Below are positions 46,548-48,612 of a stretch of 64,000 nt of DNA, piece by piece. Under the pieces are notes generated by a model. The model did no database searches. It saw nothing but the letters and a program-made list of their open reading frames with translations, and was not told the origin of the DNA. Each line of letters opens with the position of its first letter. Position 1 is the stretch's first letter. The stretch is taken from NCBI GenBank assembly GCA_937922675.1, contig CALAJN010000004.1, positions 186,001-250,000 of the forward strand. The letters run 5' to 3'. This DNA comes from an uncultured Granulosicoccaceae bacterium (GTDB lineage Bacteria; Pseudomonadota; Gammaproteobacteria; Granulosicoccales; Granulosicoccaceae). A program made the position numbers and the translations under genes.

Positions 46548-46593
46548 CGCAATAGTGATGCAGGCGCACAGAGTCAGCGTCCGCTTTCTGCGC

Positions 46594-46770
46594 ATGGGAA
46601 ACAACCGCGAGCTCGGCCGCTTGAGCGTAGTTCAAAGAGTTCTGGACAAGCGCGTGGCCCAGAGGCAAGCCAGCGAACAATTAGGTATCAGCGAGCCAAT
46701 GGCGCGTTCGGCCTGGTATCGAGAAAGCGTGGCGCTGATCAGACTCGACAACAAGGCGGCTGCGCAGGTT
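46594..46770 (+). pseudogene. IS transposase remnant (ISNCY/IS1202-like, N-terminal piece)
   Basis: From the ATG at 46594 the frame reads MGNNRELGRLSVVQRVLDKR and VAQRQASEQLGIS, which matches the N-terminal helix-turn-helix of ISNCY-type transposases (ELRRLxVLxRV..R..Q..AAExLGLS). Then the frame breaks: the matching GAFGLVSRKRG block is found in another frame right after (from 46701), implying loss of about 10 codons. Nothing of the catalytic DDE domain remains. The remnant ends close to the 3' end of the csrA-like gene on the opposite strand. Confidence 0.68.
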
Positions 46771-46837
46771 TTGTATAGCGTCTGTAACGCACCCGTGACT
46801 GATATCTTCTCGATGTGCGAGTTGTCCATGTACAAGT

Positions 46838-47223
46838 CTATACGTAGTTGTTGCTAGTGATCTGACGGCTTTCGAGCAATTCGGAGCGATTGATATCGAT
46901 GTGTTCGGGGGCACTGACCTCAACTCGCGCCTTGCTCGATTTTAAACGCATAAGAATCACCTCGATATCGTCACCAATCAGGATTGATTCGCTCTCGCGA
47001 CGGCCAAGCACCAGAGTGCCTTTTCCGTCTGAGTTGGCACGAGCCACTGATGAAGACGATTTCAGACGCAGCTGCTTACGGATCTGCACTTCTGCACGGT
47101 CTACTGGTAAGTGACGTGGTGCGGTGACGCTGATTCGCGCCTGCCATTCAAGGATTCAAGGGTGACTCTGACATCGTCACCAATAGTTATCGATTCGCCT
47201 TCGTAGCGATTGAGTTCAAGCAT
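46838..47223 (-). pseudogene. tandem double-domain CsrA with one-base frameshift
   Basis: The ATG at 47223 (GGAG 7 bases upstream) opens [18 protein letters not shown], a CsrA start, through TLESLNG at 47143; this frame then ends at 47101. One base out of step, the rest of the same domain goes on: [19 protein letters not shown], then a short linker and a complete second CsrA domain (GTLVLGRRESESILIGDDIEV ... APEHIDINRSELLE) to the stop at 46838. Restoring one base near 47143 gives 128 residues with both RNA-contact sets (Leu4/Arg6-like and VxR-type Arg). The second domain alone could be made from a GTG at 47089. CsrA normally acts as a homodimer; this would be a single-chain dimer. Decay, sequence error or frameshifting are possible. 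Confidence 0.8.
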
Positions 47224-47463
47224 GTCCCTGCTCCATTCGTTCCGAGGTCAGCTTACCGAAAACTCGCAGCACTGAATACGATCGACTCGGCAGTGCCACG
47301 ACTCTGTTCGGTCAGCCATGTCGAGATACACCGCGAGTTGCTCGTGTCCAAAACTCACTACTTTCGGACAGCGCTGAGCCTGGCCAACAGATCAATGACT
47401 TACGGCCCATGTCCATCTGCCGCTACTGCTAGCTGCGCTATATTAGGCGGCAGCACCATCCGC
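47224..47463. other. 240-base divergent region
   Basis: Between the double-CsrA gene (minus) and the enolase-superfamily gene (plus). The plus frame is open from 47293 but this part has no family match. Promoters are expected here but not identified. Confidence 0.35.
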
Positions 47464-48612
47464 ATGGCGCCTTCGTCAGTGCGCCAGCCACCCGTACAGG
47501 ATGTCAGTGACGTGAAATGCACAATTTGCTCGGTCGAGGTCACGCACTACCGAGTTCCCCTGGATGAGGTGCTCAACGACGCCATGCATGGCGATCACAC
47601 GCACTTCGAGCTTGTCCTCGTAACGATCAGACTTGACGATGGCAGTGTCGGCACCGGCTATACCTATACCGGAGGCTTGGGTGGTCATGCGATAGTAGCG
47701 ATGATCGAGCACGACCTGGCCCCTTGGCTGCTTGGACGCGATGCGCAGGATGTTGAGTCATTGAACCGGGCGATGCAGTTTCACGTCCACTATGTTGCGC
47801 GTGGAGGTATAGCGAGTTTTGCGATCTCCGCCATAGACATAGCCTTGTGGGACCTTCGTGGCAAGCAACGTGGTGAGCCGCTCTGGAAGATGGCTGGCGG
47901 TGCTGCTGACCGTTGCCGAGCCTATTGCGGCGGAATTGATCTGAATCTGTCACTGCCACGATTGCTGGACAACGTTCGTGGCTATCTTGCAGCAGGGTTC
48001 AATGGCGTCAAGATAAAGATCGGTCAACCCTCTCTTGCAGTTGACATGGAGCGCATTCAGGCCGTGCGCGAGCTCATTGGTAGTGATGTCGCGTTTATGG
48101 TGGATGCCAACTACTCCATGCACGTCGAGCAGGCCATCGAGGCCTGTCGTGCTTTTGAGGCGTTTGATCTTGTGTGGTTTGAAGAACCCATCGAACCTGA
48201 TAACTACGACGGCTATGCGCGCATTGCCGCCGAGACCGGCATGCCATTGGCCATGGGTGAAAACCTGCACACACACCATGAATTCAGACATGCCTTTGAG
48301 CGTGCATCGCTGAGCTACATTCAGCCTGATGCATCAAACTGCTGTGGCATTACCGGGTGGCTTGCTGTGGCTGAACAGTCCAGAGCGTTCGGGCTACCGG
48401 TATGCAGCCACGGCATGCAGGAGTTGCATGTGAGCCTGGTTGCCGGGCAGACAAACGCAGGGCTCATCGAAGTACATTCGTTTCCAATAGACCGCTATAC
48501 CCATCGGCCGTTGGTTGTCGAGGACGGGCTGGCGGTTGCGCCGAGCCTGCCGGGTACGGGGGTGGTGTTTGATCGCGAGAAGCTTGACGAGATGTGCACT
48601 TCCCGGATGTAA
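47464..48612 (+). CDS. mandelate racemase/muconate lactonizing enzyme family, acid-sugar dehydratase type
   Basis: 382 residues from the ATG at 47464; starts from 47293 on would add up to 57 residues without match. Enolase superfamily: capping domain to about 125, then a barrel with catalytic Lys in VKIKIG near 180, metal ligands Asp in VDANYS near 212, Glu in WFEEPI near 240 and Glu in GENLHT near 265, and catalytic His in CSHGMQE near 317. The Lys/His pair fits dehydratases or racemases of sugar acids such as talarate/galactarate. No transporter or partner gene is next to it. Confidence 0.87.

Follow-up and report, generated by a model that had tools for sequence, protein, structure and literature searches.

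On the minus strand of the window (the whole 64-kb stretch of DNA that was analysed), positions 47223 to 46838 hold two CsrA domains, D1 and D2, with a reading frame that is broken within D1. We consider this locus to be probably a lineage-specific, chromosomal two-domain csrA paralogue, which probably arose by internal tandem duplication, lost its frame by a small deletion and is now likely a pseudogene. CsrA functions as a symmetric homodimer, and the intact chain would probably have adopted the fold of a covalent CsrA pseudo-dimer, its two RNA sites for GGA-type loops being non-identical. The genome that carries the locus was assembled in 20 contigs with a total of 3.63 Mb (100% complete, 0.2% contaminated), and the parts of the locus are collected in Table 1.

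Table 1. Parts of the two-domain csrA locus and the adjoining transposase remnant, in window positions
Feature	Position	Strand	Description
D1 front half, CsrA columns 1-27	47143..47223	-	Pfam CsrA 1-26, E 7e-5
ORF1 as it stands	47101..47223	-	40 aa: half CsrA domain and out-of-frame tail
Frame-break site, beta3-beta4 loop of D1	47141..47142	-	two bases, against two codons elsewhere
D1 back half	47084..47140	-	in frame with D2
Linker, 22 residues	47018..47083	-	free of stop codons
D2, complete CsrA domain	46865..47017	-	Pfam CsrA E 4e-13; AlphaFold model of ORF2
ORF2 from first possible start (GTG)	46838..47089	-	83 aa, D2 included
ISNCY-type transposase remnant, N-terminal part, two frames	46585..46770 or, more widely drawn, 46555-46857	+	adjoins csrA gene end

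D1 starts with the ATG at 47223, which is preceded by GGAG at a spacing of 7 nt. The frame is lost near 47143, just as the sequence-only reading had described and placed it, and ORF1 then reaches, off frame, the TAG at 47103-47101. The frame that runs from 47140 comprises the back half of D1, the linker and D2, and is open for 105 codons up to the TAG at 46840-46838. The GTG of ORF2 at 47089 lies 11 nt past the ORF1 stop and has a weak ribosome-binding site (3-nt match). No intact open reading frame covers both domains, D1 being split over two frames.

The matches of D1 and D2 to CsrA are well beyond chance. Against the Pfam CsrA family (PF02599, cut-off 27 bits), D2 scored 51.4 bits, above the cut-off, and the front half of D1 alone scored 25 bits, below it (E-values in Table 1); when the two frames were joined via an unknown residue, D1 and D2 reached 46 and 58 bits, respectively, with a CsrA profile built in this analysis. 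The seven columns that are invariant in a 17-sequence CsrA alignment (L2, R6, G15, A36, P37, R44 and E46) are all present in D1 and in D2, which bears out the earlier claim that each domain keeps the core RNA-contact residues. The AlphaFold model of ORF2 had a mean pLDDT of 74, with a core of about 90 and a low-confidence leader of 24 residues. When the D2 model was compared with the PDB by Foldseek, the top matches were all CsrA, RsmA or RsmE chains (probability 1.00, with E-values of only 0.002; TM-score by target up to 0.82-0.84), and the model, which covers D2 only, accordingly predicts the five-strand plus helix CsrA fold for this domain. In RsmN, Leu4 of the first strand and the arginine equivalent to Arg44 touch the GGA loop, and this arginine is essential for binding (PMC3791407). 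Leu4, Arg6 and Arg44 are retained by both D1 and D2, and since Leu4 and Arg44 are kept in each of them, both sites could have been capable of binding RNA when intact.

That the two domains once shared one frame, as the sequence-only reading had proposed, is supported. Position 1 of D2 is Thr, not a start codon; across 49 CsrA domains (D2 included) this position is Met in 44, and in nearly all of the others an alternative start provides Leu or Val. The beginning of D2 offers no start codon that is served by a good ribosome-binding site, and judging from these features D2 was most likely translated within a longer chain. Because D2 lacks a start codon and a good ribosome-binding site of its own, and because the back half of D1, the linker and D2 form one open frame, a real fusion is probable. 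The two domains are identical at 22 of 49 positions, against 25/49 for D1 with its closest single domain and 25/51 for D2 with its closest. Five residues (E8, L22, L25, A30 and H39) are common to D1 and D2, while no more than 4% of the other domains have any given one of them, and these shared rare residues suggest an origin by internal duplication. In a tree built from 51 columns D1 and D2 were not grouped together, and their grouping was not rejected (p-AU 0.30; long branches).

As for the lesion in D1, the other CsrA domains that were compared, 48 from within and outside the family, all have a length of 51 residues with zero indels. Between Gly27 and Ala30, D1 has 2 nt (AG) where 48 of 48 others have two codons, giving a net shortfall of 4 nt. 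Since the domain length is invariant in these 48 domains, a loss of four bases is preferred and would be the simplest lesion. The single missing base of the sequence-only reading is not established; its loss would imply that the ancestral loop had one residue fewer than the loop of any other domain. The loss of one tandem tetranucleotide unit fits the shortfall, although this fit was made post hoc, and the ancestor restored by this tetranucleotide would have at column 29 a Gln, the commonest residue there in the family (39/48). The local sequence points to an ordinary slippage deletion over a single-base reading error, the latter being less likely than real decay because the shortfall is four bases.

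The preferred reading would comprise an ancestral in-frame fusion that placed two CsrA domains on a single chain, a slippage event that deleted bases for the beta3-beta4 loop of D1 and so destroyed the frame, and a loss of function that left a recent pseudogene. As it stands, ORF1 is a half domain unable to fold as CsrA, and D2 would be obtainable only by reinitiation at the weak GTG. Such a loss would be tolerable, since three other csrA genes of the genome are intact and single-domain. As the frame of ORF2 bears no second lesion over its 105 codons, either the decay is recent or D2 is still used.

No orthologue of the broken gene is present in any relative, and no second copy of its region was found elsewhere in its own genome. 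The joined protein gave no match better than ordinary CsrA in 48 family genomes, no match in plasmids, phages and viral contigs, and only single-domain Sedimentibacter CsrA among genome contigs. When an artificial tandem query was searched against plasmids and phages, the listed matches spanned 160-235 bases, that is, one domain matched twice. A tandem-CsrA profile, calibrated to give about 90 bits or less for a single domain and about 140-156 for a true tandem, revealed no unbroken two-domain CsrA among 48 genomes of the family (the order-level search comprised these same 48), 369 drawn from the class and 398 from the phylum, a search within one phylum that had no positive control. An unbroken fused protein, which the sequence-only reading had suggested looking for in relatives, was thus seen in none of the collections searched. 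That reading had also named the lack of any fused version as evidence against itself; such a lack is formally what was observed, but it weighs little since no relative has an orthologue. No paper on fused or tandem CsrA domains was found in the literature searched, and we know of no named family of single-chain tandem CsrA.

Several side observations were made on other csrA genes. A further csrA gene of the genome (L003, 1453-1650 on the minus strand of contig C14; MLILTRKADEHIRIG...) encodes a divergent paralogue in which Leu43 replaces His43, and 'ILR' CsrA types like this paralogue recur in several family genomes. The family protein closest to D2 (25/51 identical) is a single-domain CsrA extended at its C-terminus by a long tail, whose gene (L063, 562-912, minus strand) adjoins a RadC/JAB-like ORF; the Sedimentibacter CsrA proteins (L036-L038), from another phylum, tie with it in likeness to D2. 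In PLSDB, resistance labels give csrA as 'rsmA: RND antibiotic efflux pump', a carry-over of naming that could mislead.

The csrA gene is flanked on its 5' side by a divergent gene of the mandelate-racemase type (MR_MLE) and on its 3' side by a convergent gene of the dienelactone-hydrolase type (DLH). Both are common across the 48 family genomes, mostly at 60-79% identity, and they are not adjacent there: they mostly occupy separate contigs, in one genome (G021) 14 kb lies between them, and in the sole single-contig family genome the distance is megabases; the junction of the flanks is therefore private to the present genome. The gap between them holds just the broken csrA gene and the ISNCY transposase remnant. 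The latter consists of two frame pieces in its own genome, shows 44% identity to annotated ISNCY transposases with 93% of the query covered, and is distantly matched by copies in two genomes of the family (G065 and G003). The rest of the 64-kb window is dense with long intact frames, and the csrA gap is the largest between long reading frames. Rfam and tRNA scans around the locus gave no matches. The MR_MLE ORF (window 47293-48612, plus strand) is over-long, since alignments with relatives do not begin before about residue 69-84; its true start is probably near 47500-47540, in which case about 290 bp separates MR_MLE from the csrA start.

Other explanations of the locus were weighed against this evidence. 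The break could be an assembly or base-calling error, with an unbroken two-domain CsrA being made in the organism; many of the frameshift pseudogenes recorded in bacteria are technical and assembly errors are possible (PMC11017572), and the gene is otherwise well kept, with a good ribosome-binding site, complete domains and no further stop. We nevertheless regard an error as unlikely, since the break site is devoid of a homopolymer (none of at least 5 A/T or at least 4 G/C occurs in ORF1), the invariant domain length fits a four-base shortfall better than a one-base one, and the assembly shows no sign of being rich in indels, the remainder of the 64 kb being intact. D2 might alternatively survive as an 83-residue stand-alone CsrA, translated by reinitiation at the GTG with ORF1 as a leader. 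ORF2 is uninterrupted, its D2 is complete with a CsrA fold in the model, and the GTG lies close behind the ORF1 stop, but the ribosome-binding match there is of 3 nt only, the 24-residue leader was predicted at low confidence and position 1 of D2 is without Met, which leaves this explanation quite improbable.

It is very unlikely that the locus represents two adjacent csrA genes whose products were always separate chains. Tandem genes might drift into one frame, and chance would leave the linker by itself open in about 4 out of 10 cases; however, D2 has neither a start codon nor a ribosome-binding site that would serve a separate gene, and the back half of D1 continues into it in frame and stop-free. 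Programmed -1 frameshifting, finally, would connect the two frames, but no slippery heptamer of the X-XXY-YYZ type is present in ORF1, the product would have a loop one residue shorter than that of every other CsrA domain, and no homologue is conserved; the mechanism, which the sequence-only reading had likewise doubted, was rejected for want of a slippery site and has hardly any probability.

The frame-broken paralogue therefore remains the preferred reading, and the gene is of modest interest, being known from one broken copy without relatives. A single-chain CsrA pseudo-dimer would be new among CsrA proteins, but the sole copy seen is broken. We consider it possible, if only tentatively, that a natural pseudo-dimer of this kind with two diverged RNA sites exists, either live here, should the break be an artefact, or unbroken in close relatives outside the genomes sampled. 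Its two RNA sites may then form a fixed pair with differing specificity. If this is true, a naturally fused pair would amount to a fixed heterodimer in which each site is open to separate study; with the present copy broken, it is chiefly valuable for directing attention to close relatives, where intact fused CsrA genes might be sought. The relevance of mixed CsrA dimers in nature has been little explored, the evidence coming from two-hybrid experiments only (PMC9928087).

Among the known systems, CsrA, RsmA and RsmE are homodimers, each chain of which is a single domain with a length of about 65-75 residues (PMC7366521). These proteins (PF02599; PDB 1vpz, 2bti, 2jpp and 5z38) resemble each half of the present gene in sequence and the modelled D2 in fold; unlike them, the present gene joins two domains in a single chain and is broken, His43 is missing in both halves (Asp in D1, Asn in D2), and D1 has Tyr at Arg7. 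RsmN/RsmF of Pseudomonas aeruginosa is a divergent CsrA paralogue with an altered dimer build, in which Arg62 corresponds to Arg44 (PMC3791407). The present gene is like it in being a divergent paralogue whose dimer would be built differently, but the RsmN chain is a single CsrA unit into which a helix is inserted, whereas here there are two units per chain. Rsm heterodimers, among them those of the plasmid-borne RsmQ, have been detected by bacterial two-hybrid assay (PMC9928087) and likewise pair two different CsrA units; theirs are separate chains, whereas those of the present gene would be covalently joined.
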